From Anaerolineae bacterium (GTDB lineage: Bacteria; Chloroflexota; Anaerolineae; Aggregatilineales; Phototrophicaceae), in the NCBI GenBank assembly GCA_022822305.1, contig JAJEBY010000003.1, positions 248,001 to 312,000 on the forward strand: a stretch of DNA of 64,000 bases, given 5' to 3'. Each line of letters begins with the position of its first letter. The stretch's first letter is position 1. The position numbers and the translations under genes are program-made. The notes below the pieces were generated by a model. The model had not been told where the DNA came from. It ran no database searches and saw nothing but the letters and a program-made list of their open reading frames with translations. Of this stretch, positions 2,799 through 21,433 are shown piece by piece.

Positions 2799-2815
2799 AG
2801 CTTCGGGAGAACGAA

Positions 2816-4756
2816 ATGACAACTAGCGGCGAGCAGCGTAATTTCGCCATCGACGATGATCTGCGTTACGCGCGCATCGGCAGCGCGCGCTTGTCCCCGG
2901 ACGGCGCGCAAGTCGTCTGTGATGTCACGCAGCATGATCTCGAGAACAACGCCAGCTTCACTGCGCTTTGGCTGATCGACCTGGATAGCGGCGAGACGCG
3001 GCGGCTGACGCCCGGCGACGATCGCAATACTTCGCCTTCCTGGTCGCCGGACGGGGAGCGCATCGTCTTCCTGTCCGATCGCGGCGGCCAGCGGCAGGTG
3101 TATCTGCTGCCCGTCGGCGGCGGCGAAGCGATGCAATTCACGCATCTCGAACAAGGCGTCGATGGGCAGCCGGTTTGGTCGCCGGATGGCTCACAGATCG
3201 CCTTCACCGCCGGCGTGATGACAGAACCCCGGGATCCGATGGCGCCCTATCGCGTCACACGCACGGTCTATCGATTTGACGGCATCGGCTACCTCGATGA
3301 CGCGGTGCAGAATATCTATGTGCAAGCGCTTGACGGCGGCCCGGCCAAGCAACTGACCGACGACCCGCATCTGGATCGCATGCTGCGCTGGTCGCCCGCT
3401 GGAAATGAGCTGCTCTACCTGGCCTCACACGATCCGGAGCGCGGCGACCTGTTCTCCGCCAAGCTGCGCCGGGTCAATCTTGAGGGTGAGGGCGCCGAAA
3501 TCCTGGGCCTCGATTGGGGCTTCATCAAGAGCGCCGATTGGACCCTGGACGGGAAGCGCATCATCGTGGCGGCGGCAACCGGAGATCAGCCGATGGCGAC
3601 CAAGAACGATCTCTGGCTGACCGACCGCGATGGCAGCGAGGTCGAGAATCGCACCGCCGATTTGCTCTACGGCGTCGATGTCCAATGGTTCCCGGCCTTC
3701 AGCGCCGCCAAGATCATACAGACGGATTCTTCGGCCGTGGTCGGCGTTGTCGAACGCGGCGCCAAAGGGATCTACTCGGTGGCCTTGACCGGCGAGCCGA
3801 GCTGGCGACAGCTGCTGGGCGGCGAGCGCACTTTGGCGCTGCAAGACGCCGACGACTCGCGCATGCTCATGATTTCCAATGACCTGACCAACCCGGGCGA
3901 ATTGCATATCGCTGATCTCGATGGCGCCAACGAGTGCGCGATCACATCGTTCAACCGGTCGCATATCGCATCAATCGCTCTGCCCAAAGTTGAGAATTTA
4001 CTCTACGAAAGCGAAGACGGCGCGGAAATTCAAGGCTGGATGCTGATCCCAAATCAGGGTGAACCACCCTATCCGACCATCCTCTATATCCACGGCGGAC
4101 CGCATGGTTGGTACGGCCACAACTATGGTACCGACTTTCAGATGCTCGCCGGCGCCGGTTACGCTGTGCTCTTCACCAATCCGCGCGGCTCGGCCGGATA
4201 CGGCGATGATTTCGCCACAGCGCTCAGCGGTCACTGGGGCCTGCTCGATCACAAGGACCTGCTGGCCGGCGTCGATCATGTCGTCGACCGCGGACTCGCC
4301 GATCCCGATCGTCTGGGCATATTTGGCCTCTCTTACGGCGGATATATGACCTGCTTCACCATCGGCCAGACCGATCGCTTCAAAGCAGCCGTCGCCGAGA
4401 ATCCCATCACCGACCTGGTCAGCCGCTACGGCACCGCGGATATGGGTCCCTGGGGATCACTGAGCGAACTGGGCGGCAAACCGCACGAGATTCCCGATGT
4501 CTATCTCCGCAGCTCGCCCATCACTTACGCGCACAAAGTCACGACGCCAACCCTGCTGATTCAATGTCTCGACGACTTCCGCTGCCCCGCTGGGCAAGCC
4601 GAACAATTCTACGCTCATCTCAAAGCCAACGGCTGCATCGCGGAGATGATTCGCATTCCGGGCATGTCGCATGTCGCGTCGATCAGCGGACCCATCGCCG
4701 TGCAAAAAGTGCAGAATGAAGGACTCGTCGACTGGATGAATACCTACATCAGATGA
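2816..4756 (+). CDS. S9 family prolyl oligopeptidase-type peptidase, copy 1
   Basis: The 646-residue protein has an N-terminal beta-propeller of PD40/WD40-like repeats (several SWSPDG-type motifs in the first ~250 residues) and a C-terminal alpha/beta-hydrolase domain. The nucleophile is Ser506 in GLSYGGY, with probable catalytic Asp587 (DDFRCP) and His619 (GMSH). This is the architecture of acylaminoacyl-peptidases and dipeptidyl peptidases (S9C), which trim short peptides. There is no signal peptide. The start at 2816 is supported by GGGAGA upstream and by the identical length of the tandem paralogue at 4817. It lies 17 bases after the serine hydrolase, so the two are probably one transcript. 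Confidence 0.92.
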   Translation: MTTSGEQRNFAIDDDLRYARIGSARLSPDGAQVVCDVTQHDLENNASFTALWLIDLDSGETRRLTPGDDRNTSPSWSPDGERIVFLSDRGGQRQVYLLPVGGGEAMQFTHLEQGVDGQPVWSPDGSQIAFTAGVMTEPRDPMAPYRVTRTVYRFDGIGYLDDAVQNIYVQALDGGPAKQLTDDPHLDRMLRWSPAGNELLYLASHDPERGDLFSAKLRRVNLEGEGAEILGLDWGFIKSADWTLDGKRIIVAAATGDQPMATKNDLWLTDRDGSEVENRTADLLYGVDVQWFPAFSAAKIIQTDSSAVVGVVERGAKGIYSVALTGEPSWRQLLGGERTLALQDADDSRMLMISNDLTNPGELHIADLDGANECAITSFNRSHIASIALPKVENLLYESEDGAEIQGWMLIPNQGEPPYPTILYIHGGPHGWYGHNYGTDFQMLAGAGYAVLFTNPRGSAGYGDDFATALSGHWGLLDHKDLLAGVDHVVDRGLADPDRLGIFGLSYGGYMTCFTIGQTDRFKAAVAENPITDLVSRYGTADMGPWGSLSELGGKPHEIPDVYLRSSPITYAHKVTTPTLLIQCLDDFRCPAGQAEQFYAHLKANGCIAEMIRIPGMSHVASISGPIAVQKVQNEGLVDWMNTYIR

Positions 4757-4816
4757 CCGCCTGGTCGTCCATGTCTCTGACGCCATCGGGACTGCCAGAA
4801 TCTGGAGAAGATTAAG

Positions 4817-6757
4817 ATGACAGACTCTCACAACAAGCGCGATTTCGATCTCTTGGATGACTTGCGCTACGCCCGAATCGGCACGGCGCGCTTGTCCCCC
4901 GATGGCCAGTCCGCGGTCTGCGACGTGATCCAGCACGATCTCGAAAACGACCTCACATTTACTTCGCTCTGGCTGATCGATATCGCCAGCGCCGAGGCGC
5001 GGCAATTGACATTCGACAAGGGCAACAATTCCGCCCCCGCCTGGTCGCCGGATGGAGACTCGATCGCGTTTCTGTCGGATCGGGCGGGCAAACGGCAGAT
5101 TCACTTGCTGCCGGTCGCTGGCGGCGAAGCGCGGCAATTCACCCATCTCCCGCAAGGCGTGGACAGTCAACCGCAATGGTCTCCCGATGGCGCCACGATC
5201 GCTTTCACGGCCGGCATATTGACCGAAGCGCGCGATCCCGCGGCGCCCTACCGCGTCACGCGCACGATTTATCGCTTTGACGGCATCGGCTATCTCGATG
5301 ACGCCGTGCAAAATATCTACGTTCAGTCCATCGGCGGCGGCGAACCACAGCAACTCACCGACGATGGCCATCTTGATCGCGCGCTGCGCTGGTCGCCCGA
5401 TGGCCGCGAGCTGCTTTATCTGGCGGCTCATGATCCCGACCGCGCCGATCTGTTCTCGCCCAAAATCCGCGCCGTCAATCTCGATGGAAAAATTGACGAG
5501 ATACTGGGCCTCGACTGGGGATTCGTCAAAGCCGCCGACTGGACAGCCGACGGCGGGCGCGTCATCGTGATCGCATCGTCGGGTGATCAGCCGATGGCGA
5601 CCAAGGACAATCTCTGGCTGATGGACCGTGACGGAACGAACTTTGAAAACCGCACCGAGGACTTTCCCCTCGGCGTCGATATCCAGTGGTTCCCGGCCTT
5701 CAGCACCGGCAAGCTGCTGAAATCGGAGTCACAAGCTTGGGTCAATGTGGTCAATCGCGGCAGCAAAGAGACCTGGTCAATCGCGCTGAGCGGCGAGCCC
5801 GCCCGGCAAAAGCTGCTGAGCGGCGAGCGCTCGATGACGCTCTGCGACGCCGATGACAAGCAGTTGCTGTTCCTGAACTCGGATCTGACCAATCCCGGGG
5901 AGCTGCACACGGCCGCGCTGGACGGCTCGAATGAGCGCCCGATCACATCTTTCAACGCGGCGCTGATGGACGAGATCGCTTTCCCCAAAGTGGAGCATTT
6001 GCTTTACCAAACCGAAGACGGCGTCGATATCCAAGGTTGGCTGCTGGTCCCGAATAGCGGCGAGCCGCCCTATCCCACCGTTCTGTACATCCACGGCGGT
6101 CCGCACTGGTGGTACGGCAATACCTACGGCACCGACTTTCAGATGCTGGCCGGCGCCGGATACGCCGTGCTCTTCGTCAATCCGCGCGGCTCGACCGGCT
6201 ATGGCGACGATTTCGCGACCGTCCTGTCGGGCCAATGGGGCCTCCTCGATCACAAAGACATCCTTGCGGGAGTCGATCACGTTATCGAAAGCGGCTTCGC
6301 CGATCCGGATCGGCTGGGCGTCTTCGGGCTGTCTTATGGCGGCTATATGACCACGTTCTTGATCGGACATACGCATCGTTTCAAAGCGGCGGTGGCGGAG
6401 AATCCCGTCATCGATTTGGTCAGCGAATACGGCACCGCCGATATGTGCATTTGGGGCGCGCAGAGTCTCTTCGGCGGCAAACCTCACGAGGCGCCCGATG
6501 TCTACCATCGCAGTTCTCCCATCACTTACGCCCATCTGGTCAAGACGCCCACGCTGATGATTCAGTGCGAGGACGACTTTCGCTGTCCCATCGGCCAAGG
6601 CGAGCAATTCTATGCCCACTTGAAAGCGAATGGCTGCCATGTCGAGATGATTCGCATCCCGGGCATGTCGCACACGGGAACCATCGACGGACCGATTTAT
6701 GTGCAGAAGGCGCAGAATGAAGCGCTGGTTGAGTGGATGGACAGATACGTCAAATAG
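4817..6757 (+). CDS. S9 family prolyl oligopeptidase-type peptidase, copy 2
   Basis: A tandem paralogue of the preceding gene with exactly the same length (646 residues) and the nucleophile again at Ser506 (GLSYGGY). Asp (EDDFRCP) and His (GMSHTG) motifs are present at the corresponding places. The N-terminal propeller begins with a nearly identical segment (DDLRYARIG). GGAGA precedes the ATG by about seven bases. Sequence differences are spread along the whole protein rather than clustered, which points to an older duplication, perhaps with divergent peptide preference. No signal peptide is seen. Confidence 0.92.
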   Translation: MTDSHNKRDFDLLDDLRYARIGTARLSPDGQSAVCDVIQHDLENDLTFTSLWLIDIASAEARQLTFDKGNNSAPAWSPDGDSIAFLSDRAGKRQIHLLPVAGGEARQFTHLPQGVDSQPQWSPDGATIAFTAGILTEARDPAAPYRVTRTIYRFDGIGYLDDAVQNIYVQSIGGGEPQQLTDDGHLDRALRWSPDGRELLYLAAHDPDRADLFSPKIRAVNLDGKIDEILGLDWGFVKAADWTADGGRVIVIASSGDQPMATKDNLWLMDRDGTNFENRTEDFPLGVDIQWFPAFSTGKLLKSESQAWVNVVNRGSKETWSIALSGEPARQKLLSGERSMTLCDADDKQLLFLNSDLTNPGELHTAALDGSNERPITSFNAALMDEIAFPKVEHLLYQTEDGVDIQGWLLVPNSGEPPYPTVLYIHGGPHWWYGNTYGTDFQMLAGAGYAVLFVNPRGSTGYGDDFATVLSGQWGLLDHKDILAGVDHVIESGFADPDRLGVFGLSYGGYMTTFLIGHTHRFKAAVAENPVIDLVSEYGTADMCIWGAQSLFGGKPHEAPDVYHRSSPITYAHLVKTPTLMIQCEDDFRCPIGQGEQFYAHLKANGCHVEMIRIPGMSHTGTIDGPIYVQKAQNEALVEWMDRYVK

Positions 6758-6869: not shown

Positions 6870-6941
6870 CTTTTGTACGGTGCGCACTCCAAACGTGGGC
6901 GCTGTAAGTGACGGACTTTGTCAAGGAAGAAAGGATTTACC

Positions 6942-8303
6942 ATGCGAGTATCATATCGATCTGCAGTTTTGCTCCTGGCGGTCGTGCTTATGGCGATTCC
7001 CATGGGCGCGGTCTTCGCTCAAGACGCCGATATCATGGACCCGGCTACCTTTGGCCTGCAAGAGGGCAAGCCCTATGACGGTACCCATCTTGACTTCTTA
7101 ATCTGCTGCAACACTGCGCCGCAATTTGCGTCGGGCGCCGTCAAGGGAGCGGAAGAATTCACCGCCATGACCGGCATCACTGTCTCCTGGGGCAATATAC
7201 CCTTCGGGGCCTACCAGGAAGCGCTCTATCTGGAAGCGTCCAATCCCAACACCGAATATGACATCGTTGCCTACGTTGACGCTTGGGGCACCAATATCTA
7301 TGACTACTTGCATCCGCTCAACGATTTCGTGGATGATGCCGGATTCGACTGGGACGATTATGGCCCGGCTTATCAAAGCGCATCGACCGGCAACAGCGAT
7401 ACCATTTATGGCTTGCCCTTCCGCGGTCATCCATTGCTGCTTCACTATCGCGCCGATGTCCTGGAAGCGGTCGGCGTCGATGTGCCGACGACCTGGCAGG
7501 AAGTATCCGAAGTCGCGCAAGCCATCGTGGATAGTGGCATGGATATCACTCCCATCGCCATGTATTACGGCCTGAATGTGGATCAGAATCTGTTCAACTG
7601 GTACAGCCACCTCTGGGGCGCCGGCACCGATATCTTTGACGAAAATTGGGAACCGGCCTTCAACAACGAGACCGGCGTCGCCGCCACCGAGCAGTACGTC
7701 AGCTACGTGCGCGATGGCTATTCGGCCGAAGCATCGGTCGCCTGGAACGAGCAGGAAGCGAACGAAGAACTGATTCAGGGGCGCGCCGCCATGTTTGTTG
7801 GCTGGTGGTGGATGGCTACCCGCATGGTCTATTCCGATGTGCCGGAAGTCGCCGACAACGCCGCATTCGCGCCGGCGCCGGGCTGGGAAGGTGGTGTCAC
7901 CACCTCTTACGGCTATCTGTGGCCGGTGGGCATCCTGGCGCAATCCGACGACCTGGAAGCATCGCTCGAGTACTTGAAGTGGCTCTTGCATCCGATCACC
8001 GAGCGCCGCATCGTGCTCGATGCCGAAGATCCGGCCTTGGATACCAATGTGGCAGTGCGTCTCTCGATCCTGGCGGACGAAGAGGTCAACGCGGCCCACA
8101 ACGGTTTGCAGGGCGTCGCATCCGAGGTATTGGCCACCGCCCGCACTATCCCGTTGATCCCGCAATATACCGAGGTCATTCCCTTCCTCGCTGAAGCCAT
8201 CAACGAAATCGCCGTTGACCCCAACGCCGATATCCAGTCTGTTTTGGATTTGGCCGCGGAAGATACGCGCTACACGATGGATTCGGCAGGGTACTACGAA
8301 TAA
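6942..8303 (+). CDS. ABC transporter family 1 (sugar) solute-binding protein
   Basis: The 453-residue protein begins with a cleavable signal peptide (Arg near the N-terminus, hydrophobic core about 9-22, likely cut at VFA-QD). The fold is that of a MalE-like extracellular solute-binding protein. It is followed by two MalF/MalG-type permeases, so it is the receptor of a sugar-type importer. The start at 6942 is preferred because AAGGAAGAAAGGA lies just upstream. There is no lipobox Cys, which is unusual if the cell has a single membrane. The ligand is not predictable from sequence. A hairpin repeat between this gene and the permeases may set the ratio of receptor to channel. Confidence 0.9.
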   Translation: MRVSYRSAVLLLAVVLMAIPMGAVFAQDADIMDPATFGLQEGKPYDGTHLDFLICCNTAPQFASGAVKGAEEFTAMTGITVSWGNIPFGAYQEALYLEASNPNTEYDIVAYVDAWGTNIYDYLHPLNDFVDDAGFDWDDYGPAYQSASTGNSDTIYGLPFRGHPLLLHYRADVLEAVGVDVPTTWQEVSEVAQAIVDSGMDITPIAMYYGLNVDQNLFNWYSHLWGAGTDIFDENWEPAFNNETGVAATEQYVSYVRDGYSAEASVAWNEQEANEELIQGRAAMFVGWWWMATRMVYSDVPEVADNAAFAPAPGWEGGVTTSYGYLWPVGILAQSDDLEASLEYLKWLLHPITERRIVLDAEDPALDTNVAVRLSILADEEVNAAHNGLQGVASEVLATARTIPLIPQYTEVIPFLAEAINEIAVDPNADIQSVLDLAAEDTRYTMDSAGYYE

Positions 8304-8308
8304 ATAAA

Positions 8309-8412
8309 CCCCCGTCCCCTTCCCAAAGACATGGGGAGGGGACCCAACAGCCGTCTCAGGCGCCTAATGCCCCTCCCGCTTTATGTAGGGAGGGGTATGG
8401 GAAGGGGGAAGG
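8309..8412. repeat. Family A hairpin repeat (CCCCTTCCC / GGGAAGGGG)
   Basis: Two facing copies of a C-rich/G-rich hairpin unit. The left end CCCCTTCCC (8315-8324 region) pairs with GGGAAGGGG near the right end, and each half is itself a stem. The whole block fills the gap between the binding protein and the first permease. Its right end supplies the GGAAGGAA that serves as ribosome binding site of the permease gene. Related copies lie at about 22080, 29616, 47128, 48731, 57444 and 57655. Confidence 0.75.
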
Positions 8413-8418
8413 AACATT

Positions 8419-9402
8419 ATGCGCAAAAAACGCTGGGTTCCCTGGGTATTGGTCGGGCCAGCCCTGATAGTAGTATTTGCCACAACGATCTATCCGCTGT
8501 TGGCAGCCTTCTATTACAGCTTCCAAAAATATGACTTGCGCAAGCCGCCGCAATTTGCCGTGCAATTGGCCAGCGAAGCGGGCGATCCGCTGATTTCCGT
8601 CGACTGGAGCCTGCTCTCGCTGAACAACTATGCGCGAGCCTTCAGCGATGCCCGCTTCATCAACAGCCTGAATGTCACTTTCTGGTTTACAGTCATTTCC
8701 GTCGTTTTGTCTGTTGTTATCGGACTCTTGATCGCCGTTGTCGTTCAGAAGAGCGGCCTTCTGCAGACCTTGACCAAGATACTCTTGATCTTCCCGTTCG
8801 CGGTCAGCCCCGCCCTGAAAGGTTATAGCTGGCGCTACATGCTCCACGAAGAATACGGCATCTATGACCTGCTGATCGACGTGCTAATCGTGAAGCCAAT
8901 CAATCTTGTAATTGAGCTGATCAACATACTTCCCTTCGTCGACATCACGCCCGTCAGCGAGTCCATCGTCTGGCTGGCCGACAAGTTTTGGGCGCTTTTC
9001 ATGCTGGCCATGAGCGAGACCTGGGGCTGGGCGCCGCTGATCGCGCTGATGTTCGTCGGCGCGCTCGGTTCGATCGATACGCAAATCTTCGAGGCGGCGC
9101 GCATCGACGGCGCCAACAACTGGCAGATCTTTTGGAGGGTCACGCTGCCGCTGCTGCGTCCGGTGATTCTGATCGTCACCATGCTCAAGACTATCTTTTC
9201 GCTGAAGATGTTCGACCAAGTTGTCACCATGACCGGCGGCGGACCCGTGCGCGCCACGCAGACCATCAACTACTATATTCATCAGGTCGGCTTCGTGCGC
9301 AATCTGGATATTGGCTATGCATCGGCGCTGTCTTATATCCTTGTGGTGATCCTGTCTGTCTTCGCAGTGCTTTACGTATCGAAGGTATTGAACCGCAACT
9401 GA
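8419..9402 (+). CDS. Sugar ABC transporter permease (MalF type)
   Basis: The 327-residue integral membrane protein has a first transmembrane helix at about 8-30, a long extracytoplasmic segment, and further helices to the C-terminus. The EAA loop that docks the ATPase is visible as EAARIDGANNWQ followed by LPLLRP. GGAAGGAA precedes the ATG and comes from the end of the upstream hairpin repeat. It forms the channel together with the next gene. No ATPase gene adjoins this operon; the only MsmK-type ATPase in the window is at 29737. Confidence 0.92.
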   Translation: MRKKRWVPWVLVGPALIVVFATTIYPLLAAFYYSFQKYDLRKPPQFAVQLASEAGDPLISVDWSLLSLNNYARAFSDARFINSLNVTFWFTVISVVLSVVIGLLIAVVVQKSGLLQTLTKILLIFPFAVSPALKGYSWRYMLHEEYGIYDLLIDVLIVKPINLVIELINILPFVDITPVSESIVWLADKFWALFMLAMSETWGWAPLIALMFVGALGSIDTQIFEAARIDGANNWQIFWRVTLPLLRPVILIVTMLKTIFSLKMFDQVVTMTGGGPVRATQTINYYIHQVGFVRNLDIGYASALSYILVVILSVFAVLYVSKVLNRN

Positions 9403-9417
9403 GAGCCAAGTGGGCCA

Positions 9418-10347
9418 ATGATGACGACCACTATCGCTGATCATCGCTCGAAAGACCTCCCTATGAGCAGAATCCGCCAAGACATTGGGCGCGTGGGGGA
9501 AACAGCGCTGCTTCTGCTCGTGATTGCATTCATCATGCTGCCCATCTATTGGCTGGCGATGACCTCTTTCAAGACGCCGGAGAAAGCCTACACCACCGAG
9601 ATCATCTTTCCGCCGACATTGAAGAACTACGAAATCATATTCTCTGATGGCTCCGTTGTCGTCAACGAAGGCACGGATAGGGAGCGCGGAGAAGTCGGCC
9701 GCAACATGGCGCCCAACGTTGTCAACAGCGTGGTGGTCTCCGGCGCGACTGTCTTGATTGCCATCCCCTTGGCAACCATCGCAGCCTACGCTTTCAGTCG
9801 CTACAACTTTTTCGGCAATCGCGCCCTGCTGATTTGGATTCTTACGACGCAATTCATTCCAGCGATCGTGGTGGCGATCCCCTTCTTCACGCTCTTTCGC
9901 ACCGTTCAATTCTTTGGCGAGCCGTTGCTGGGGACGCGTTGGGGGCTGATCATCGTCAATATGTCGATCGTCCTGCCCTACGCGATCTGGATGATCAAAG
10001 GCTTTGTCGATGCCTTGCCCGGTGAAATTGAACAAGCCGCCTATGTCGACGGCGCAAACGACTTCCAGGTGCTGTTCTTCGTGTCGCTTCCCCTCATTCG
10101 TCCTGGCATACTAGTCGCTTCTGTTTTCGCCTTCATCATGTCCTGGAACGAATTCCTCTTTGCTCTGATCATCGGCCGCGAGATGCGCACCATGCAAGTC
10201 GCCTTGATGACAACCAGCGGCATGCGCGGCGTCTTATGGGAGCAAATGGCCGCGGCGGGCATGGTGGTCATGGTGCCGATCTTCTTCCTGGCGCTGTTCA
10301 TTCGCAAGAACGTGGTCGAGGGTTTGACCATGGGCGCGGTCAAATAG
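9418..10347 (+). CDS. Sugar ABC transporter permease (MalG type)
   Basis: The protein of up to 309 residues has about six transmembrane helices and the cytoplasmic EAA motif (QAAYVDGANDFQ then LPLIRPG). The C-terminus GLTMGAVK is typical of MalG-type subunits. It starts 15 bases after the MalF-type gene and pairs with it. The start is uncertain: the ATGs at 9418 and 9421 have no clear ribosome binding site, and the ATG at 9463 (MSRIRQ) is an alternative that would still leave the first helix intact. An extracytoplasmic loop (about 75-100) is charged and longer than usual. Confidence 0.9.
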   Translation: MMTTTIADHRSKDLPMSRIRQDIGRVGETALLLLVIAFIMLPIYWLAMTSFKTPEKAYTTEIIFPPTLKNYEIIFSDGSVVVNEGTDRERGEVGRNMAPNVVNSVVVSGATVLIAIPLATIAAYAFSRYNFFGNRALLIWILTTQFIPAIVVAIPFFTLFRTVQFFGEPLLGTRWGLIIVNMSIVLPYAIWMIKGFVDALPGEIEQAAYVDGANDFQVLFFVSLPLIRPGILVASVFAFIMSWNEFLFALIIGREMRTMQVALMTTSGMRGVLWEQMAAAGMVVMVPIFFLALFIRKNVVEGLTMGAVK

Positions 10348-11050: not shown

Positions 11051-12826
11051 CTAGCTATCGGGCGTCGCCAGCCAACTCTCCGGGATCATCACCGGCTGGG
11101 ATTCACCGGACACGGCGGCGAACCAGCGCAGCATTTTCACCGCGCGCTCTGTGATGGATTCTTCCGCCGGCGCCCGATCCAGACGCGCGTCAAAGAGCAG
11201 ACCGCCACGTCCCCCGCGCAGCTGCATATTCAAGCGCCGCTTGTCTCCGATGCGGATGCCGCGAGCAGTTTGCACGCGAATCTCGACGCTGCTGCCCGGC
11301 GGCGCCGGCAAATGCCAGACATCACCGACCGCGATCTCCCGATCAAGCGTCTTGCCATTGGACGACCTGATATGCAGCTTCAGCGCTGTCTTGCCGGGCG
11401 TCGCCCGTCCGCCGGCACGGATCAGACTGCCCACATGCTCGACCAAACCACCTTCCAGCAACTGCACCACTGCCATCGGCTCGGTCGCCGACAGCACACC
11501 CAATGCCGGCAATGCGCCGTGCCGATCGGCTTTGAAATTCACGACGCCCTGCAGATCCAGGGCATCCGCCAGCAGCAGCATATCCAGCGCGCCTTGGCCG
11601 CTGCCGGTGATAGTCGCGCCGGATGTTATCACCAGGCCCAAACGCGTCAGATCGACCGGTCGCGAACCTGCCAACTGATCCGCCCTCAATGCCTCCAGCA
11701 GATAGCCGATGCCCGCGCGCAGCAGAGCATAATCGATATAGCGCTCGCGCATATCAAGCGCCGCCGCTGCCGAGCGCAATCCCTTTTTCAGGGCATGCTG
11801 CGCCAGTTCATCGCGCCGCGCATGAAAGGGCAGCCACTGCTTCACGGCGCCCTCGCCGACCAATTCCAGAGTGCTGGCGGCGCTCTGCCCCATGCCGATA
11901 TCGGTCCGTACGACCGTGCGCAGCTCGCCCTTGGCCGCGAAAGAAAGCAGACTCTTCGAGCCGCCCAGATCAATCGTGAGCGTGTCAACGCCATGCGACC
12001 GCGCGAAGAATGCTGTCATGGTCTCATACCCGCGCGCCGTCGGCGTGATGCCGCTATCGCTCATTCCCGCGATATTCCGATAGGCGCCACCGCGCGTGAG
12101 ACTGAATTCGTGATAGTACTGGTCCAGCGCCGCCAGCAGCGGTTCAGGCGTCAAACGCCGTGATGTCGGGCGGATATTGGGCGCAACCATCACCTCGACC
12201 AACTGGCTGAGCAAGTCGCGCGCGCTTTGCGCAAGGCTGTTGTTGCCGGCATAAATGATGGTCGGTCGCAGTCCGGCCGGCATCGCCATCACCGCCTCGC
12301 GCAATAGATTCAACATCTGCAGCATCGCTGAACGAGCGCCGCCATCAGTGCCCCCGCTGACCAAGACCAGGTCCGGCCGGCTGTCCACGATGCGATTGAC
12401 GCGCGCGCGATCGTTCATGCCATCGTCAAGATGAATCTCGGCAACAACATTGAAATAAAAGGGCACACCCGCGCGCCCCGCCGGCTTGATGCTGATATCG
12501 GGCAACAAACCCAGCAGCGCCGTGCGGATCCCTGCTCCGGCGCTGGCGGTAGTGATGCAATAATCCACGCCCACCCGGTCTGATTGCTCCGGCTTGATCA
12601 GTTCGCCTCGCGGATCGAAAAAGCGGCGGCCGCTCGCAGAAGCGATTTCACCCAGGGCTTGACGCAATCCGACGGCCAAATCGTCCACGGGCGCGCCGGC
12701 AGTAGATTTGGTCTGTCGATTGGCGACCAGCCGATACTCGCCATCTACAATGTCAAACAGCAAGACGCGCGTGTGCACGCTGCCGAAATCGACCGCCAAA
12801 ATCGAATTTGTGCCCGCCTCGCCCAC
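11051..12826 (-). CDS. Glutamate mutase L (MutL/GlmL)-like ASKHA-fold protein
   Basis: The 591-residue protein has the nucleotide-binding signatures of the acetate kinase/Hsp70/actin fold: a phosphate-1 motif near the N-terminus (AVDFGSVHTR), an internal DLGGSKS motif and late glycine-rich segments (SGATITGSG). The closest family I recognise is the MutL/GlmL accessory protein associated with coenzyme B12-dependent glutamate mutase. No mutase S or E subunit is in the window. Instead the gene is the last of a six-gene operon of membrane proteins, so its partner is probably that complex. A GTG start with GGAG eight bases upstream fits, three bases after the preceding stop. The fold is a confident call, the function is not. 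Confidence 0.75.
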   Translation of the reverse strand: MGEAGTNSILAVDFGSVHTRVLLFDIVDGEYRLVANRQTKSTAGAPVDDLAVGLRQALGEIASASGRRFFDPRGELIKPEQSDRVGVDYCITTASAGAGIRTALLGLLPDISIKPAGRAGVPFYFNVVAEIHLDDGMNDRARVNRIVDSRPDLVLVSGGTDGGARSAMLQMLNLLREAVMAMPAGLRPTIIYAGNNSLAQSARDLLSQLVEVMVAPNIRPTSRRLTPEPLLAALDQYYHEFSLTRGGAYRNIAGMSDSGITPTARGYETMTAFFARSHGVDTLTIDLGGSKSLLSFAAKGELRTVVRTDIGMGQSAASTLELVGEGAVKQWLPFHARRDELAQHALKKGLRSAAAALDMRERYIDYALLRAGIGYLLEALRADQLAGSRPVDLTRLGLVITSGATITGSGQGALDMLLLADALDLQGVVNFKADRHGALPALGVLSATEPMAVVQLLEGGLVEHVGSLIRAGGRATPGKTALKLHIRSSNGKTLDREIAVGDVWHLPAPPGSSVEIRVQTARGIRIGDKRRLNMQLRGGRGGLLFDARLDRAPAEESITERAVKMLRWFAAVSGESQPVMIPESWLATPDS

Positions 12827-12829
12827 CGC

Positions 12830-13510
12830 TCAAACTCCGAATCGCATCAGGAAGCCCACGCGTTCGACGAATATCGTCAGCATGCTCAACATCGTCGTCG
12901 CGTAGATGGCGCCAAGCGTCGTCACCACGAAGATCTTGCCCAGTGAGCGCACGGCATAACCGACGCGGCTTCGTCCCGCCGAGTCGTCATCGCCCTGCCG
13001 CAGCTGAAATTGAAAGTAGAACAAACCGCTCATCGTGCCCAGGAAGATCAGCACAGTATTGACCAAGGCTGTGAAATCGGCGGTGATGTCTTCCGGCACA
13101 ACTGTAATCGCATGCAGCAGCGGGAACAGCGTGCCTGTCAGCGCGCCTACAACCGCCGTCGCCGCGCCAACCACAATCAATACAGCGAGAATGCTATTGG
13201 TCAGCCAGCTCAAGCTGGCTATCGGTTTCAGCAACAGCAGCAAGCCAAACAGCAGCGCCGTCACAAAGATCGTCACATCGGCTTGGTTGCCCAACGCGGT
13301 CCAGCTGGTATTGGCATCCTGGATATCGGCGAGATAGGGCAGAATGACGCCTTCGTAGGTGGCGACCAGCGTGAAGGCCGCGCTCATGCCAATGAAGATG
13401 TAGACCGCCGTCCGGTATAGGCTGCTGACCAGCGGCAGGTCCCCCAACAGATAGCTGAAGACCATCAGTGTCGCCACAAAGCTGATCAAGGTAATGGCGC
13501 TTTCGCTCAT
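12830..13510 (-). CDS. Polytopic membrane protein of the MutL-like operon
   Basis: A 226-residue protein with about six predicted transmembrane helices (first at 5-25, then about 32-52, 78-95, 103-125, 148-168 and 190-212) and a short charged cytoplasmic loop (RQGDDDSAGRSR). I do not recognise a family. It starts 13 bases after the SH3-containing membrane protein and ends three bases before the MutL-like gene, so it is translated from the same message. It probably acts with them in the cell envelope. Confidence 0.7.
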   Translation of the reverse strand: MSESAITLISFVATLMVFSYLLGDLPLVSSLYRTAVYIFIGMSAAFTLVATYEGVILPYLADIQDANTSWTALGNQADVTIFVTALLFGLLLLLKPIASLSWLTNSILAVLIVVGAATAVVGALTGTLFPLLHAITVVPEDITADFTALVNTVLIFLGTMSGLFYFQFQLRQGDDDSAGRSRVGYAVRSLGKIFVVTTLGAIYATTMLSMLTIFVERVGFLMRFGV

Positions 13511-13523
13511 GCGGCTGGCTCCG

Positions 13524-15575
13524 TCACTGTCCGTCAGGCCCGCGCCGGCGCTGCAGCAAACCGCGCATGGCGTAGAAGACGTTGCCGGTCACGATGATCA
13601 AAATGGCGGCGATGGCGCCCAATGTCATGGCATCCAACTGAGCGATTTCGTGCCGGCGATCCCGCAGCAGCACGATTTCCGGACGCTCCGGCGATCCCGG
13701 CGGATCGACCTGATACAGCCGCGGTCGGTTCTTTCCCAAACGCAGCGGGAATTCTACTCGCAGCACAGATTGCGCGCTGCCGACGCTGGCGCTTTCCACC
13801 GCCCTGAATTCGTCCAACGGCATTTGGTATTGATCGACCAGGAACTCGGCGATCCAGGCTGCAATGTCGTCGGCCATGAGAAAGTTGATCCAGCTGCCGT
13901 CATCCGTCCCGCCGATGACTTCGAAGACATCGCCCGCTTCGGCCACGCCCAGGATATCCGAGGTGGTATTCGGCTCGCGGCGAATGTTGACCAAGCCGCC
14001 TGCGGTCACCTCGATGACCTCAATCAGCGCCGTTGTGGCGGTGGCGGACGGGACGACGGCCGCTGGCGGGGCGGTCGCGGTCGCTGTTAACGTCGCTTCG
14101 ACAGTTGCGGGCGCCGCGGTCGCCGGTCCCGCGCCCAGAGGTAGCGCCTCGGGTTCAATCTCGGTCGCCGTGGGCGTAGGCGTTTCTGTGGGCGCGGGAG
14201 TCTCCGTCGCCGTTTCAGTCGGTGTCGCCGTTGCCGTCGGCGTCCGCGTCGCCGTCGGCTGCTCGACGACCCGGCCCGGATCTGGAGTATAATCCGCGTA
14301 AATCGCCCCTAACTTTTCCCCGTAGGTATAGACATCGCGGATGCCGACGATCAGACCGATGATTTCATCAGAGCCATCCACGTAAGGCTGTGACAGGGGC
14401 TGCGCGGCGTAGCCGGTGGCGGCAATCAGTTTGGTCTCGGTTTCCGGCGCGACTTGCTCCGCCCAGTTGCGAATCGCGTCCGCGCGCTCGGCAATGACCA
14501 CCATCAAGGTCAAGTCATTCAGCGACGTGAGCCCGAGGCCGGTGGCTTTGCCCGTGGACGAAAAGCGAATGATACTGTCAAAATTCTCGCTCAAATCGCG
14601 CAGACCCAGCGCCCCGCCGCTCAGATAACGCAGGAGATAGTAATCCCGACTTTCTTCAAAGCTGATGGCGGCCGGCGCCACCGAACGCTCAATCTTGGCG
14701 ATGACGTTGCGCGCGTGAGAAACCGCGATGGGATTGCTGCTGACGATGATCGGCGTCGAGCCTTGCGCCATAATGTGTCGCAAAATGATATCGGCCATCG
14801 GATCCAGCTCGCCGGCGGCCGTCGGTCCATATTCGAAAGCCACCAGCACAAAGTCGTCACGCGACAGATTGTCCAGTAAGCTGTAGGCCGTACTGACGCC
14901 GTGACGATCTTCATGGAACTCCGACGGCGGCAATTCCCCTTCGCGGAAATCGGACGAGACGAAGGGCAGCGCGATCGCCAGCAGCAGCAACATCGAGCCA
15001 ATCAACTGTGGCGCCGCGTCCAGGGAAAAGCCCGAACGCGGACGGAAAATGCGGCGTGACGACGGCTCGGCTTCGCCGGTTTGGGCGGAGCCGCCCACCA
15101 TGTCGCGCAAGAGCGCCACTTGTTCCTGTTGCGCCTTGGACAGCGCGACGGCGCTGATGACGCCGCCGGGCCGATGAATGATCTCCGGCGTGACCAAGAC
15201 ATCGTCGACATCGTATAGCGCCTGGCCGGTTGATTCGGCAGCGGAATCCGGATGCGCCGACGACCGCTGCCGCAAGGCTTGCAGGCGATCATCCAGATCT
15301 TCGATCGGGCGTTCGCCGCGTTGCAAGGCCAGATCGGCCGCGGAGACTTCCGAGCGCGCGCGCCTGAATCGACCTATAAACGCGGGTAAGGCGCCGAACA
15401 TGCGACGCAGGCGACCGGGCGAGGCTTCATCCGCAGGTGATTCTGCAGCGCTGGAATCACCGCGGCGCAAGAATCCAGGCGCCAGGCGCCGCAAGCCCGA
15501 CAAACGAGACGGCCGCTTCGCATCCGCAGCCGTGTCCTCGTCCTCGTAATCCAGCCAGCTGAAGTCGTCTGTCAT
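13524..15575 (-). CDS. Two-anchor membrane protein with extracytoplasmic SH3b domain and Thr/Pro linker
   Basis: The 683-residue protein has a disordered, basic and acidic cytoplasmic N-terminus (1-185), a transmembrane helix at about 188-206, an extracytoplasmic alpha/beta domain (about 215-435), a Thr/Pro/Ala-rich linker with TPT-type repeats (about 440-525), a bacterial SH3-like segment (VNIRREPNTTSDILG, about 530-590), and a C-terminal helix at about 650-670 ending in a basic tail. SH3b domains often bind cell-wall or peptide ligands. The alpha/beta domain is unassigned. It is the largest member of the operon and is the likely extracellular sensor or scaffold. Confidence 0.75.
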   Translation of the reverse strand: MTDDFSWLDYEDEDTAADAKRPSRLSGLRRLAPGFLRRGDSSAAESPADEASPGRLRRMFGALPAFIGRFRRARSEVSAADLALQRGERPIEDLDDRLQALRQRSSAHPDSAAESTGQALYDVDDVLVTPEIIHRPGGVISAVALSKAQQEQVALLRDMVGGSAQTGEAEPSSRRIFRPRSGFSLDAAPQLIGSMLLLLAIALPFVSSDFREGELPPSEFHEDRHGVSTAYSLLDNLSRDDFVLVAFEYGPTAAGELDPMADIILRHIMAQGSTPIIVSSNPIAVSHARNVIAKIERSVAPAAISFEESRDYYLLRYLSGGALGLRDLSENFDSIIRFSSTGKATGLGLTSLNDLTLMVVIAERADAIRNWAEQVAPETETKLIAATGYAAQPLSQPYVDGSDEIIGLIVGIRDVYTYGEKLGAIYADYTPDPGRVVEQPTATRTPTATATPTETATETPAPTETPTPTATEIEPEALPLGAGPATAAPATVEATLTATATAPPAAVVPSATATTALIEVIEVTAGGLVNIRREPNTTSDILGVAEAGDVFEVIGGTDDGSWINFLMADDIAAWIAEFLVDQYQMPLDEFRAVESASVGSAQSVLRVEFPLRLGKNRPRLYQVDPPGSPERPEIVLLRDRRHEIAQLDAMTLGAIAAILIIVTGNVFYAMRGLLQRRRGPDGQ

Positions 15576-15578
15576 GCC

Positions 15579-16220
15579 TCAACCCCGGTAGGAGCGATCC
15601 TGACCGAGCAAAATGCGCACGCCCGCCACCACGGTTCCCAGCGCGATGCCAAGCAGGATAGCGCGCGCGCCGGCGCCGACCGGGATGTCCATCAGCCAGT
15701 CGCTCCATTCGCGCAAGGGCGCCAGCGCCGGCAGGGGCAAGGTCCCCAGCAGCACGATGACCATCACCGTGACGAAGAGCAGCCCCCAAATATCGGCGCG
15801 CTTTTTCATCACACGCGCGCCGCCCTGCGCCATCGACAGAAAGAGCAACGCCGCCAGCGCCGATTCAATCGGTACCTGCACCGCCGCCAGCAGCGACGTA
15901 TCACCCTGACGGGTCAGATACCAGTACATAGTGAAGGCGAAACTCGCGATCATGACAATGCTATAGAATTGACGGCGCAGACCGCGGCCGGCGTGTACAT
16001 GCAGCAGATTGACAATGCCGATGACGATGGTGACGGCGACCGTCAGCGTTACCAGCCGCAGCAGCACCGCCGCCGGCAAGGCCAGCAAACCCGCCCAGAT
16101 CTCGGCGCCGGCCACGTTGCCATAAAGCTCGGGATGATCGCCCAGCAGCAGGCTGATCAGCGTCAGCACGCCGACCGCGAAGGCGACAGACGCCGAAAAC
16201 GCGATGCCCATCCGCCTCAT
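15579..16220 (-). CDS. Polytopic membrane protein of the MutL-like operon
   Basis: A 213-residue hydrophobic protein with about six transmembrane helices (first at 5-26, then about 40-70, 85-105, 110-130, 145-165 and 185-203). It is not assigned to a family. It lies three bases after the preceding gene and three bases before the SH3 protein, so the operon is very compact. Length and topology resemble the 226-residue member, and the two may be distant homologues or form a heteromer; this is inference. Confidence 0.7.
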   Translation of the reverse strand: MRRMGIAFSASVAFAVGVLTLISLLLGDHPELYGNVAGAEIWAGLLALPAAVLLRLVTLTVAVTIVIGIVNLLHVHAGRGLRRQFYSIVMIASFAFTMYWYLTRQGDTSLLAAVQVPIESALAALLFLSMAQGGARVMKKRADIWGLLFVTVMVIVLLGTLPLPALAPLREWSDWLMDIPVGAGARAILLGIALGTVVAGVRILLGQDRSYRG

Positions 16221-16223
16221 GCG

Positions 16224-17057
16224 TTAACTCCTGCGAAAGAGAAGCGCGCTGACCACCAGCAATCCCAGCGCCGCCGCCAGCACCAACGTCCCGCTGACGG
16301 ATGCCAGCTGCGCGCTTAAATTGATCAGCAGCAGAATCGACAGCCCGATGATCAGCAGGCCGCGCCAAACATCCGATACGCGCGCATCGGCCAGCGCCGT
16401 CGTATCCGTAGACAAGTGGGCGGCGGCGCTGAACATCTGCTCGCCGATCAAAACCTCGTCGGCCATGGCGAAGGCCACCGCCCCCCCATCGAGCTGATCG
16501 CTGACCGCCAGCGTGCCTTGCCCCAGCTGCTCCGCGCTATTGAGCATCAGCGCCAGCTCCGGACCGAAGCTGCCGGCCAGCACATGCCCGGCCGGTTCAT
16601 CGACGCCCATCATGGCGGATACGCCAGCGGCATAGGCGATTGAGCGATCCCCTTGCGGATACCACTGCGCCTGCTTCCATTGCGGATCGCCCTGCCAGGC
16701 GCGGCGGATGGTATCCTGAGCCAGCGGCACCGTGGCCGCCGAAGATGTGCTGATCAGCGGCGCGCTGTCGCTGGATTGGGTCGCCCGGATGATGTGATAG
16801 AAGAACTCGGCTTCGGCCGCGGCGATCGGCGTCTTTTCGCTGCCGATGGCGGCGCCCCCAAAGCCCAGATGCAGCGGACGCCCGGTCTCGATGCCTTGGC
16901 CAATCCAGCCCGGCATGCGCTCGAAACCGGCGGCGCCCTGCCCGGTCGAGCGCCGCGAACGACGCGCATGAAAAAAACGCGCCGTAAAAATTAATACCGC
17001 AGTAATCGCGACAAATATGATGCTGTAAACACGAACGGTTGTATCATCCAGCGGCAT
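16224..17057 (-). CDS. Membrane protein, possibly DUF6754-type
   Basis: The 277-residue protein has an N-terminal helix (about 8-26), a basic stop-transfer segment, a large soluble domain (about 40-225) and two C-terminal helices (about 228-245 and 252-272). The soluble part has a GRPLHLGFGG segment and Gly/Ala-rich stretches (GVSAMMGVDEP, VLAGSFGPE). It resembles uncharacterised Anaerolineae proteins that I remember as DUF6754, but that assignment needs a profile search. Its ATG overlaps the stop of the first gene in the operon (TGATG), so translation is coupled. Confidence 0.6.
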   Translation of the reverse strand: MPLDDTTVRVYSIIFVAITAVLIFTARFFHARRSRRSTGQGAAGFERMPGWIGQGIETGRPLHLGFGGAAIGSEKTPIAAAEAEFFYHIIRATQSSDSAPLISTSSAATVPLAQDTIRRAWQGDPQWKQAQWYPQGDRSIAYAAGVSAMMGVDEPAGHVLAGSFGPELALMLNSAEQLGQGTLAVSDQLDGGAVAFAMADEVLIGEQMFSAAAHLSTDTTALADARVSDVWRGLLIIGLSILLLINLSAQLASVSGTLVLAAALGLLVVSALLFRRS

Positions 17058-17308
17058 CAGGCCTCCTCGTCGTCGGCCAGCCGCCGCCGCAGGATATCAA
17101 TGCCGTCGGGCGCTTCCAGCAACTCCGCCAGCTCGCCCAGCGCATCGGCCCCCTGCCACAGCCCGGCCAGCGGCTGCGCGGCGTACAAGCCCTGCGCCAG
17201 CACCGGCGCGATCGGCGCTATCACATCAAGCATAATCGAGGCGAATGGCGCCCCGCCGAGGCGCTTGACTTTGTCGACCGGGTCGGGTTTCCGTGGCGTG
17301 ATATTCAT
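17057..17308 (-). CDS. Small first gene of the MutL-like operon
   Basis: An 83-residue protein with a basic N-terminus, a central hydrophobic Ala/Pro-rich segment (about 25-48) and an acidic C-terminus (LADDEEA). It is not assigned to a family. The ATG at 17308 is preferred over upstream codons because a TATACT box lies seven bases before it, leaving no room for a leader. This suggests a leaderless message. Its stop overlaps the next start by one base. Confidence 0.6.
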   Translation of the reverse strand: MNITPRKPDPVDKVKRLGGAPFASIMLDVIAPIAPVLAQGLYAAQPLAGLWQGADALGELAELLEAPDGIDILRRRLADDEEA

Positions 17309-17315
17309 ATCGGGC

Positions 17316-17321
17316 AGTATA
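17316..17321 (-). promoter_or_regulatory. Predicted -10 box giving a leaderless transcript
   Basis: TATACT on the minus strand ends seven bases before the first codon of the MutL-like operon. No convincing -35 is visible. If it is used, transcription starts at or beside the ATG. Confidence 0.4.
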
Positions 17322-17424: not shown

Positions 17425-20400
17425 ATGAGCGCACCCGACCGAGTTTATCAATTGGTCGAGAAATTTGACCGCGAAAAACCTGGCAGCGAAACCGAAGTTC
17501 GCATTCAGTTTGTGGATCCGCTGTTCAAGGCGCTGGGCTGGAACTTGCGCGACAAGCGACAGGTGCGGCATGAACCGAGAGTCACCATTGAGGAAGCGGG
17601 CTTTGAACGATCCAAGCGGCCCGATTACAGCTTCCATATCGGCAACACGACGCACTTCTTCGTCGAAACCAAAATGCCGCATGTGAACCTGGAGCGGGAC
17701 CCCATCCCGGCATTTCAGTTGCGGCGTTACGGCTATTCGGGCAAAACATCCGTTAGCGTCCTGACCGATTTCCAAGAATTCTGCGTCTACGATTGCCGGG
17801 TACGACCAAATCAAAACGACCCGGCCCCCAAAGCCCGCCTCCGCTATTGGAATTACGAGAGTTTCATCGACAACTGGTATGAAATAGAATCGCGATTCAA
17901 CCGTGAAGCCGTTGCCCGAGGCTCGTTGCGCGAGTGGGTCGAAGGCGAGCGCGTCCGCGGTGCCTCCAGCGTCGACTACGACTTCCTGCGCGAGATGGAG
18001 AAGTGGCGCGACATGCTGGCCAAAGACATCGCCCTGCACAACCGCGACCTTAGCCAGCGCCAGCTCAATCTACTCGTCCAGCGGACCATCGATCGCATCG
18101 TCTTCCTGCGCATCGCCGAAGACCGCGATATCGAAGCCTATGGACGCCTGCGCAGCGCGGCCGGCGACGGCAAGCAAGTCTATGAAGAACTGAAAATCCT
18201 ATTTAACGAAGCCGACGACAAATACAATTCGGGCTTGTTCCACTTTGGCAAAGACGAGCGCGTCAGCGATCCCGACAAACTCTCAATGACCATCTACGTG
18301 CCTGACGAGCCGCTGCGCCACATCATCAAGAACGTCTATTTTCCCGAAAGCCCCTTCGAATTCTCCGTCATACCGCCGGAGATTCTGGGCCAGGTCTACG
18401 AGCGCTTCCTTGGCAAAGTCATCGAATTAAGCGCGGGCGGCGCGGTGCGCGTCGAAGAAAAACCCGAAGTCCGCAAAGCCGGTGGCGTCTATTACACGCC
18501 CACCTACATCGTCGAATACATCGTGGAGAACACCGTCGGCAAGCTGCTCGACGGCGCGACGCCCGAAGAGGCGGCGAAGCTGCGCATACTCGACCCGGCC
18601 TGTGGCAGCGGCTCCTTCCTCACCGGCGCCTATCAATACCTGCTCGACTGGCATCTGGAATACTACTCCGAGCATACCGGCCGCTACCGCAATCGCGTCC
18701 GCGAAATCGCCGGCGAAGGCATCATCCTGACCACCGCCGAAAAACGACGCATCCTGCAGAACAACATCTACGGCGTCGACCTCGACCAGAACGCCGTCGA
18801 GGTCAGCAAGCTCTCCCTGCTTCTGAAAATGCTGGAGAACGAAAACGATGCCACCGGCCGGCAGACCATCATGTTCAGCGCCGGCGGACGCATCCTGCCC
18901 GACCTCAGCGGCAACATCAAATGGGGCAATTCCCTCATCGGCAGCGACTACTATAGCGGCGAGCAGTTGACGCTCTTTGACCAAGAAGCGCTGTACAAGG
19001 TCAAGCCCTTCGATTGGGATAGCGCGGACGGCTTCGGCGACATCATGCGGTCCGGCGGCTTCGACGCCGTGATTGGCAATCCGCCTTATATTCGCATTCA
19101 GACGATGAAAGAGACCGACCCCGAAACCGTGCCTCACTACAAGACAAATTACGTTTCGGCCTCAAAGGGCAATTACGATATTTATGTCGTCTTCGTCGAG
19201 AAAGGCTTGCAACTTTTGAATAAACGAGGCTTGCTGGGCTTCATCCTACCGCATAAGTTCTTCAATGCGATGTATGGCGAGCCGTTGAGAGGGCTTATTT
19301 CAAGCGGGAATCATCTCAGAAAGATTGTCCATTTTGGCGCAAGTCAAGTATTCGCAGGAGCAACAACTTATACGTGTCTGCTTTTTCTACATAAAACAGG
19401 TCAATCTGAATTTGAATTCGTTAAATCGCACGATTTAGAGGATTGGATAGCAACCAAGGCTGGTGTCACAGGAATGGTTTCTTCTATCCGGACGTCAAGC
19501 GACGAATGGAATTTCATAGTTGGGAGCGGTTCAAACCTGTTCTACATGCTCGCTGACAATTATCCCAAACTTGGAGATTTGACAGATATATTTGTCGGCT
19601 TACAAACGAGTGCGGATAAAGTCTACATAATGGATCTAGTAGAGGAAACAGACGAACAATATTTGTTGCGCTCGCAATCATTAAAGACTATATGCAGATT
19701 TGAGAAAGATCTGCTTCGACCTATCGTAAGTGGTACGGACGTAAATAGATTTACTTTGTCAAAAGCACGACAATACATCTTGTTTCCTTACTCGGTGGAA
19801 AATGAGAAGGCAACGCTGATCCCATTCAACAGTTTGGAAGAGCAATATCCTCTGACGGCAGACTATCTGTTACACAATCGAGAAACCCTTGAACAGCGCG
19901 AAAGAGGGAAATTCAGAGATGAAAACTGGCATAGGTTTGGCCGAAGTCAGAATTTAGGAATTCAAGAAAGAATCAAGCTTTGTATCCCACGACTTGTAGA
20001 AAATCTGTACATGAGTTTTGACGAGTACGGTGAATATTACCTTGACAACGTGGATGTCTGCGGCGTCAACATCAAGTCTCAATTTGTCCGCTATGACAAT
20101 CGCTACTTTCTAGGTTTGCTCAACTCTAAGGTTTTGCGCTGGTATTTCCCATTCGTGAGTGCCCCTTTTCGTGGCAATTGGCTATCCGCCAACAGACAAT
20201 TCTTGTCACAACTCCCAATCCGCACAATCGACTTTGACGACCCCGCCGATGTCGCCCGGCACGACAAGATGGTCGAACTCGTCGATAGAATGCTGGACTG
20301 GCACAAGCAGCTGCCTGACTTGACCGGCGAGGCGCTGCGGATTGTGAACGCGCGGATTGCGGCGACGGATCGCGAAATTGACGCCCTCGTCTACAAACTC

Positions 20401-20445
20401 TACGACTTGACGCCGCACGAAGTCGCCATCATCGAGGGCAAATAG
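17425..20445 (+). CDS. Single-polypeptide restriction-modification enzyme (type IIG-like)
   Basis: The 1006-residue protein joins three parts. The N-terminus has a PD-(D/E)xK nuclease core (Glu24, D67 in RPDYS, E81-T-K83) like the HsdR N-terminal domain. The middle has an Eco57I-type N6-adenine methyltransferase with motif I (DPACGSGSF) and motif IV (GNPPY). The C-terminus is a TaqI-like target-recognition region. Such enzymes cut and methylate with one chain. A GAGGAGA lies just upstream of the ATG. Base composition is mosaic: about 19130-20215, the specificity part, is clearly AT-richer than the flanking parts of the same gene. No separate specificity or restriction gene adjoins it. Confidence 0.88.
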   Translation: MSAPDRVYQLVEKFDREKPGSETEVRIQFVDPLFKALGWNLRDKRQVRHEPRVTIEEAGFERSKRPDYSFHIGNTTHFFVETKMPHVNLERDPIPAFQLRRYGYSGKTSVSVLTDFQEFCVYDCRVRPNQNDPAPKARLRYWNYESFIDNWYEIESRFNREAVARGSLREWVEGERVRGASSVDYDFLREMEKWRDMLAKDIALHNRDLSQRQLNLLVQRTIDRIVFLRIAEDRDIEAYGRLRSAAGDGKQVYEELKILFNEADDKYNSGLFHFGKDERVSDPDKLSMTIYVPDEPLRHIIKNVYFPESPFEFSVIPPEILGQVYERFLGKVIELSAGGAVRVEEKPEVRKAGGVYYTPTYIVEYIVENTVGKLLDGATPEEAAKLRILDPACGSGSFLTGAYQYLLDWHLEYYSEHTGRYRNRVREIAGEGIILTTAEKRRILQNNIYGVDLDQNAVEVSKLSLLLKMLENENDATGRQTIMFSAGGRILPDLSGNIKWGNSLIGSDYYSGEQLTLFDQEALYKVKPFDWDSADGFGDIMRSGGFDAVIGNPPYIRIQTMKETDPETVPHYKTNYVSASKGNYDIYVVFVEKGLQLLNKRGLLGFILPHKFFNAMYGEPLRGLISSGNHLRKIVHFGASQVFAGATTYTCLLFLHKTGQSEFEFVKSHDLEDWIATKAGVTGMVSSIRTSSDEWNFIVGSGSNLFYMLADNYPKLGDLTDIFVGLQTSADKVYIMDLVEETDEQYLLRSQSLKTICRFEKDLLRPIVSGTDVNRFTLSKARQYILFPYSVENEKATLIPFNSLEEQYPLTADYLLHNRETLEQRERGKFRDENWHRFGRSQNLGIQERIKLCIPRLVENLYMSFDEYGEYYLDNVDVCGVNIKSQFVRYDNRYFLGLLNSKVLRWYFPFVSAPFRGNWLSANRQFLSQLPIRTIDFDDPADVARHDKMVELVDRMLDWHKQLPDLTGEALRIVNARIAATDREIDALVYKLYDLTPHEVAIIEGK

Positions 20446-20765: not shown

Positions 20766-20837
20766 GCGCCGCCGCCTTGAATCCTCGCTCAGTATAACTT
20801 TGCCGCGAATTAGTGTCAAAATCGGGCGTTGAAAAAA

Positions 20838-20874
20838 TCCTCTGCGCCCTCTGCGCCTCCGTGGTTCAATCCCC
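20838..20874. repeat. Short direct repeat, copy 2
   Basis: Second copy of the repeat at 20449-20484, in the same orientation, about 40 bases before mscL. Confidence 0.65.
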
Positions 20875-20914
20875 TGCTACAATCAAACCAGTTGCAAATC
20901 ACGGAGACCAGAAC

Positions 20915-21433
20915 ATGAGCGGGATAATCGAAGAATTCAAAAAGTTCGTCATGCGCGGCAACGTGGTCGATCTGGCCGTCGGCATCATCATCGGCACCGC
21001 CTTCAAAGGCATCACCACCTCGCTGGTCAAGGATGTCATCATGCCGCCCGTCGGTCAGCTCACCGGCGGCCTGGATTTCTCCGATTGGGTCATTCCCCTC
21101 AACTGGCTGAACTTCGGCCGCGAATCCGCGGAAATCGCCACCCTCAACGCCGGCAACTTCGTCAATGTCGTGATCGACTTTCTAATCACCGCCATCGCCA
21201 TCTTCCTGCTAATCAAGGTCGTCAACAAGCTGGACGAAGCGGTGGACGACATCGGCGACATGCTTGATGGCGATGAAGACGAACCCGCGCCCGAACCGGA
21301 ACCCGAACCCGAACCGGAACCCGAACCGGAGCCAGAACCCGAACCCGAGCCGACCACCGAGGAGAAGATTCTCGCAGTGCTGGAACGCATCTCCGCCCAG
21401 TTGGACAAAGCCGAGCAACCGCCTAAGCCCTAG
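20915..21433 (+). CDS. mscL: Large-conductance mechanosensitive channel MscL
   Basis: A 172-residue protein with the MscL N-terminal amphipathic helix (EEFKKFVMRG), the pore-lining first helix (NVVDLAVGIIIGTAF) and a second helix at about 88-108. It opens under membrane tension to release solutes in osmotic downshock. The cytoplasmic bundle is longer than the usual 130-150-residue proteins: ten consecutive Glu-Pro dipeptides (about 125-148) separate the channel from a C-terminal helix (TTEEKILAVLERI). The ATG at 20915 follows CGGAGA; earlier codons fall in the upstream repeat. Confidence 0.95.
   Translation: MSGIIEEFKKFVMRGNVVDLAVGIIIGTAFKGITTSLVKDVIMPPVGQLTGGLDFSDWVIPLNWLNFGRESAEIATLNAGNFVNVVIDFLITAIAIFLLIKVVNKLDEAVDDIGDMLDGDEDEPAPEPEPEPEPEPEPEPEPEPEPTTEEKILAVLERISAQLDKAEQPPKP

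Follow-up and report, generated by a model that had tools for sequence, protein, structure and literature searches.

The DNA analysed here, referred to as the window, is a stretch of 64,000 nucleotides from an Anaerolineae bacterium (contig JAJEBY010000003.1, positions 248,001 to 312,000 of the forward strand). Six co-oriented open reading frames (ORFs), g1 to g6, lie on its minus strand at positions 17308-11051, and the last of them encodes a MutL-like protein. The genes are closely packed, with a 1-base overlap between g1 and g2 (TGATG) followed by gaps of 3, 3, 13 and 3 bases. In a profile search the source genome (G000) contained one MutL and one DUF6754 protein, and both are encoded in this operon. 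The genes and the features discussed below are the following, with TM standing for transmembrane segment.

17057..17308, minus strand: g1, 83 aa, soluble, the first gene, an ORF call; positive in 57 of the 58 relative loci with complete flanks
16224..17057, minus strand: g2, 277 aa, DUF6754 membrane protein, from Pfam, AlphaFold2 and fold comparison
15579..16220, minus strand: g3, 213 aa, polytopic, about 6 TM by hydropathy; kept in 57 of the 58 complete loci
13524..15575, minus strand: g4, 683 aa, bitopic, from homology, TM prediction, AlphaFold2 and Pfam
12830..13510, minus strand: g5, 226 aa, polytopic, about 6-7 TM by hydropathy; kept in 57 of the 58 complete loci
11051..12826, minus strand: g6, 591 aa, GTG start, predicted MutL-like ASKHA ATPase with an extra C-terminal domain
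11102..11452, minus strand: C-terminal domain of g6, approximately residues 459-575, delimited from alignments; signature GLIIDARGRPL..LP in relatives
14298..14909, minus strand: conserved domain of g4, residues 223-426, Rossmann-like alpha/beta, predicted to be extracytoplasmic
13881..13991, minus strand: SH3b domain of g4, residues 529-565, SH3_3 at 26.3 bits, an addition of the window's family
17316..17321, minus strand: -10-like hexamer TATACT, 7 nt before the ATG of g1, predicted leaderless transcript start

An earlier, sequence-only reading of the window had described a co-oriented six-gene unit with overlaps or short gaps, a possible DUF6754 protein in second place and a MutL/GlmL-like protein at the end. 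The ORFs and junctions were verified, and g2 scored 57.5 bits against DUF6754 (PF20539, cut-off 27), which makes it a member of that family. g6 matched the Pfam MutL model (PF13941) with 164.1 bits (cut-off 27, E=6e-48) over profile positions 1-447 of 450, so that the ASKHA core spans the whole model as in GlmL. The GlmL part of the assignment did not carry over to the equivalog level, as g6 reached 80 bits against the NCBIfam GlmL model (NF040745) with its cut-off of 475. The score against the OR-4 ornithine degradation protein (NF040744) was 68 bits, which places g6 in the same wider family but below the cut-off of 600. No Pfam model of FtsA, MreB or PilM matched g6, and the only match besides MutL was a sub-threshold one to YAcAr at E up to 1.

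In an alignment, MutL proteins of the operon type kept the motifs of the ATP site, namely DFGS at phosphate-1, IDLGG at phosphate-2 and SGA at the adenosine, and this is a further likeness of g6 to GlmL. They differed from it in a C-terminal domain of approximately 120 residues with the signature DARGRPL, where all three GlmL sequences showed gaps. The three GlmL sequences also formed one clade in the MutL tree (support 100/100), on a long branch of 1.64 and apart from the operon type, while the g6 of the window grouped with its family relative. Genome G176 contained both kinds of protein: a GlmL that adjoins GlmE at C1:1242388-1245214, and an operon-type MutL at C1:757628 together with g2, g3, g4 and a gene named d1, described below. 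Because this genome holds both, 486 kb apart, operon-type MutL and true GlmL are paralogues. One MutL match, at locus L083 (G184:C45), was part of a frame of 1264 aa whose branch in the tree was very long, and the other operon genes were absent there.

The order g1 to g6 on a single strand is shared by Chloroflexota relatives of the window. Among named species genomes, a scan found 435 relatives with the signature G[VLA][VI]IDARGR, of which the best 80 were kept. All 80 loci came from records of certain or probable Chloroflexota origin, and 58 of them had complete flanks. In 56 of these 58, g1-g2-g3-g4-g5-g6 was followed by d1 and d2, in the same order and on one strand. The view of a six-gene unit that ends in MutL was thus correct for the window, which has neither d1 nor d2, but most relatives have eight genes. 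The d1 protein has approximately 350 aa, with a weak RnfC_N-like stretch and a KOW domain, and d2 has approximately 200 aa with two TM. The operon spans a wide part of the MutL tree, Chloroflexia-like families included, and the cultured strains that carry it include Longilinea, Levilinea, Ornatilinea and Thermanaerothrix.

A phylum survey of 400 Chloroflexota genomes found MutL in 200 and DUF6754 in 87. In about 70 of these 87 genomes, by hand count, DUF6754 and MutL shared contig and strand at a distance of approximately 3-7 kb, and most of the remainder looked like contig breaks or ends. Sixty loci were read, and they showed the block g2-g3-g4-g5-g6 both within the class and in families more distantly related. 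A plasmid search for relatives beyond Chloroflexota returned GlmL-type matches only. A DUF389 membrane protein that also has an SH3b domain was encoded on the downstream side of the operon in 30 of the 80 relative loci (for example L126:13520-14758, minus strand), and a phosphoglucomutase-like gene was adjacent in 44.

This order was conserved without glutamate mutase, both in the complete loci and in most of the sampled Anaerolineae-type genomes, in agreement with the mutase-free operon that had been read from the window. Glutamate mutase E (PF06368) was not found by profile search in the source genome, which is 94% complete, and it exceeded its cut-off in 5 of the 400 phylum genomes. A glutamate mutase just beyond the operon was rejected, as no subunit was found beside it in the loci of the relatives or in the phylum scan. 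Nor was the lysine/ornithine aminomutase (PF09043), the enzyme that would correspond to an OR-4-like role, found in the source genome; among 30 genomes it gave a single match, a fragment. On these comparisons g6 appears to have left the glutamate-mutase context and to be mutase-independent here. Because the order is shared by dozens of genomes, nearly all of them without glutamate mutase, the product of the conserved block is probably a membrane complex that is driven by ATP and has not been described.

The most variable member of the operon was g4. In the window its predicted layout is a cytosolic tail, TM1, a Rossmann-like ectodomain, a Thr/Pro linker, SH3b and TM2. In relatives it consists of an N-terminal zinc ribbon, a long motif-bearing tail, TM1, the conserved domain and TM2, and the ribbon was present at the start of g4 in 60 of 73 relatives. 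The motif of the tail, P[DSEN]W[LMI] (LPDWL type), occurred in 448 copies in the g4 proteins of relatives compared to 4.2 expected by shuffling, and it was almost confined to g4 and nearly absent from the other operon genes. The number of copies ranged from several to approximately 60 per protein, with the high end in Chloroflexia-like genomes. We considered whether loss of d1 was linked to loss of these repeats, but some families have d1 and yet few motifs. For residues 223-426, AlphaFold2 predicted a Rossmann-like fold with a predicted local distance difference test (pLDDT) score mostly >90, and Pfam and NCBIfam searches with this domain gave nothing consistent across 68 members. The sequence-only reading had given weight to the SH3b and Thr/Pro features of g4. 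This emphasis was not supported, since SH3_3, which in the window falls just below its cut-off of 27, matched 1 of the 68 aligned g4 members, the window's own, and SH3-like and Thr/Pro stretches were otherwise visible only in its family relative L063.

A Rossmann-like domain was also predicted in g2, at approximately residues 40-217 between TM segments (AlphaFold2 mean pLDDT 86), but a homology between the g2 and g4 domains was not supported by profile comparison. Because positive charges flank the TM segments, such as RRSRR after TM1 of g2, the g2 domain is predicted to be cytosolic and the g4 domain to lie outside. DUF6754 is a family without assigned function and was unmentioned in the literature searched. 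Pfam profile searches with g1, g3 and g5 gave no credible match.

The start of g1 had been read as leaderless, and the comparison across relatives supported this prediction. In 40 of 67 g1 orthologues an ATG near the start had a TATAAT-like hexamer (at least 5 of 6 positions) 5-8 nt ahead of it, compared to 1.9 after shuffling, and the count for the other operon genes was 0-6. A Shine-Dalgarno-like stretch preceded g1 in 2 of 67 cases and g2 in 27 of 67. The conserved position of the hexamer and the scarcity of Shine-Dalgarno stretches therefore mark g1 as a transcript start, and g1 is predicted to start leaderless.

Considering the operon as a whole, we think it reasonably likely that the products of g1 to g6 form a single membrane complex powered by the cytosolic ASKHA ATPase g6. 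Pairing of a cytosolic ASKHA protein with membrane partners is known from the PilM-PilN-PilO, FtsA and GspL systems. The proposed arrangement resembles these, and differs from them in that g2 to g6 have no sequence match to those families and form another gene set. g6 would be a MutL-type ATPase that acts on membrane partners, with g3 and g5 as integral membrane subunits and g1 as a small soluble subunit. A Rossmann-like domain at the cytosolic face of the membrane would be contributed by g2, and g4 would provide one at the outer face together with the cytosolic tail that in relatives carries the zinc ribbon and the LPDWL repeats. In most lineages this multivalent tail may recruit g6 to the membrane. 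Binding and hydrolysis of ATP would close and open the ASKHA clamp of g6, the motion would be passed to the membrane subunits, and the complex might thereby assemble, gate or remodel something at the envelope. Assembly or sensing at the envelope is a plausible guess at its task. In its full form, the proposal is that a MutL-type ATPase, recruited to the membrane via the LPDWL tail, couples cytosolic ATP hydrolysis to the outer-face Rossmann-like domain in an undescribed Chloroflexota machine, and this we put forward tentatively. The physical complex, its topology, the hydrolysis of ATP and the direction of coupling are all things that we infer.

Three other explanations were weighed, and the one closest to what is known of the family is that g6 has remained an assembly chaperone or reactivase for a B12-dependent mutase, and that the membrane genes merely share its operon. 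g6 belongs to the Pfam MutL family, in which MutL/GlmL is described as a chaperone that reactivates glutamate mutase (PMC4682846), and the source genome has an acyl-CoA mutase, elsewhere than in the operon. The strongest hint toward a mutase role was a neighbourhood of approximately 18 loci, all of one Anaerolineales lineage, in which a MeaB-type GTPase and a B12-binding subunit of the acyl-CoA-mutase type lie upstream of g1 and divergent from the operon (L144:2123-3600, L066:2391-3964 and approximately 16 further loci). This hint does not generalise, because acyl-CoA mutase (PF01642) was found in 326 of the 400 phylum genomes irrespective of the operon and was missing from the near-complete operon genomes G072, G382 and G176, of which G072 and G382 also lacked PF06368 and PF09043 (other B12 enzymes were not searched). 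Acyl-CoA mutase as a requirement for the operon was rejected on the basis of these three genomes. With the low GlmL score of g6 and its extra C-terminal domain added to this, a mutase helper is highly improbable.

A signalling device, in which the outer-face domain of g4 senses the state of the envelope and g6 and d1 relay it to regulators, takes its appeal from the surroundings of d1. In Chloroflexia-like genomes d1 lies outside the operon, and in most loci read the genes that come after it encode a hybrid histidine kinase and a receiver protein. At one locus (L206) d1 has a divergent PspC gene as its neighbour, and the d1 protein has a KOW domain, as do Spt5, NusG and L24. The operon itself contains no regulator, however, the kinase neighbours occur in one lineage only and d1 was not detected in the window's family, which makes this explanation doubtful. 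Beyond the kinase and the receiver, genes of an F-type ATP synthase were seen at the d1 loci (L205-L210). Alternatively, g6 could be a membrane-bound cytoskeletal ASKHA protein of the FtsA, MreB or PilM kind that polymerises or clusters under the membrane via the g4 repeats. Its family membership implies the ASKHA fold, and repeats as numerous as those of g4 would permit multivalent clustering. Against this stand the missing matches of g6 to the models of those three proteins and the finding that the FtsA and MreB models matched in all 80 genomes tested. Because both were found with and without the operon, g6 replaces neither of them, a possibility that was considered and rejected, and a cytoskeletal role is improbable.

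Several observations also weigh against the membrane complex that we favour. The g4 of the window has neither PxW[LMI] repeats nor a zinc ribbon; it appears to have lost both and to have gained the Thr/Pro linker and SH3b. d1 was detected neither in the source genome nor in G240, its family relative, although a diverged copy is possible, and it was present in the other 18 of the 20 genomes tested. With the repeats, the ribbon and d1 all wanting, part of the typical machine is therefore missing here. In families with large genomes, for example f30 and f48, MutL is found together with d1 and a g4-like protein that has no TM, but g2, g3 and g5 are absent, and the membrane part is therefore not indispensable to MutL. 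These families suggest that the ribbon-and-repeat protein, MutL and d1 are the core, and g2, g3 and g5 the membrane part. Fold searches with the g2 and g4 domains yielded generic Rossmann neighbours only: Foldseek found nothing at E <0.001 in the PDB, the best structural Z of 10-11 belonged to generic folds such as MT0777 and the carbon monoxide dehydrogenase (CODH) epsilon subunit, and a specific PDB family was rejected for either domain. Finally, both the complex and the ATPase activity of g6 are predictions from sequence.

Around the operon, the divergent neighbour at 17425-20445 (plus strand) encodes a 1006-aa Eco57I-type restriction-modification methylase, and its pairing with the operon is not conserved. 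It is followed at 20813-21433 (plus strand) by an MscL mechanosensitive channel with a run of Pro-Glu repeats at its C-terminus. On the other side of the operon, a tandem pair of S9 prolyl-oligopeptidase-like proteins at 2762-6757 (plus strand) precedes a sugar-type ATP-binding cassette (ABC) transporter at 6918-10347.

The operon is real and conserved, and as far as the literature searched shows it is undescribed. MutL-like proteins are commonly taken to assist glutamate mutase. Of the 400 Chloroflexota genomes sampled, half matched MutL, most of them without glutamate mutase E, and many of these MutL genes lie in the conserved membrane operon. Operon-type MutL genes are thus likely to be misread by annotation, and for a phylum whose cell biology is poorly known the operon is a clear target that can be tested.

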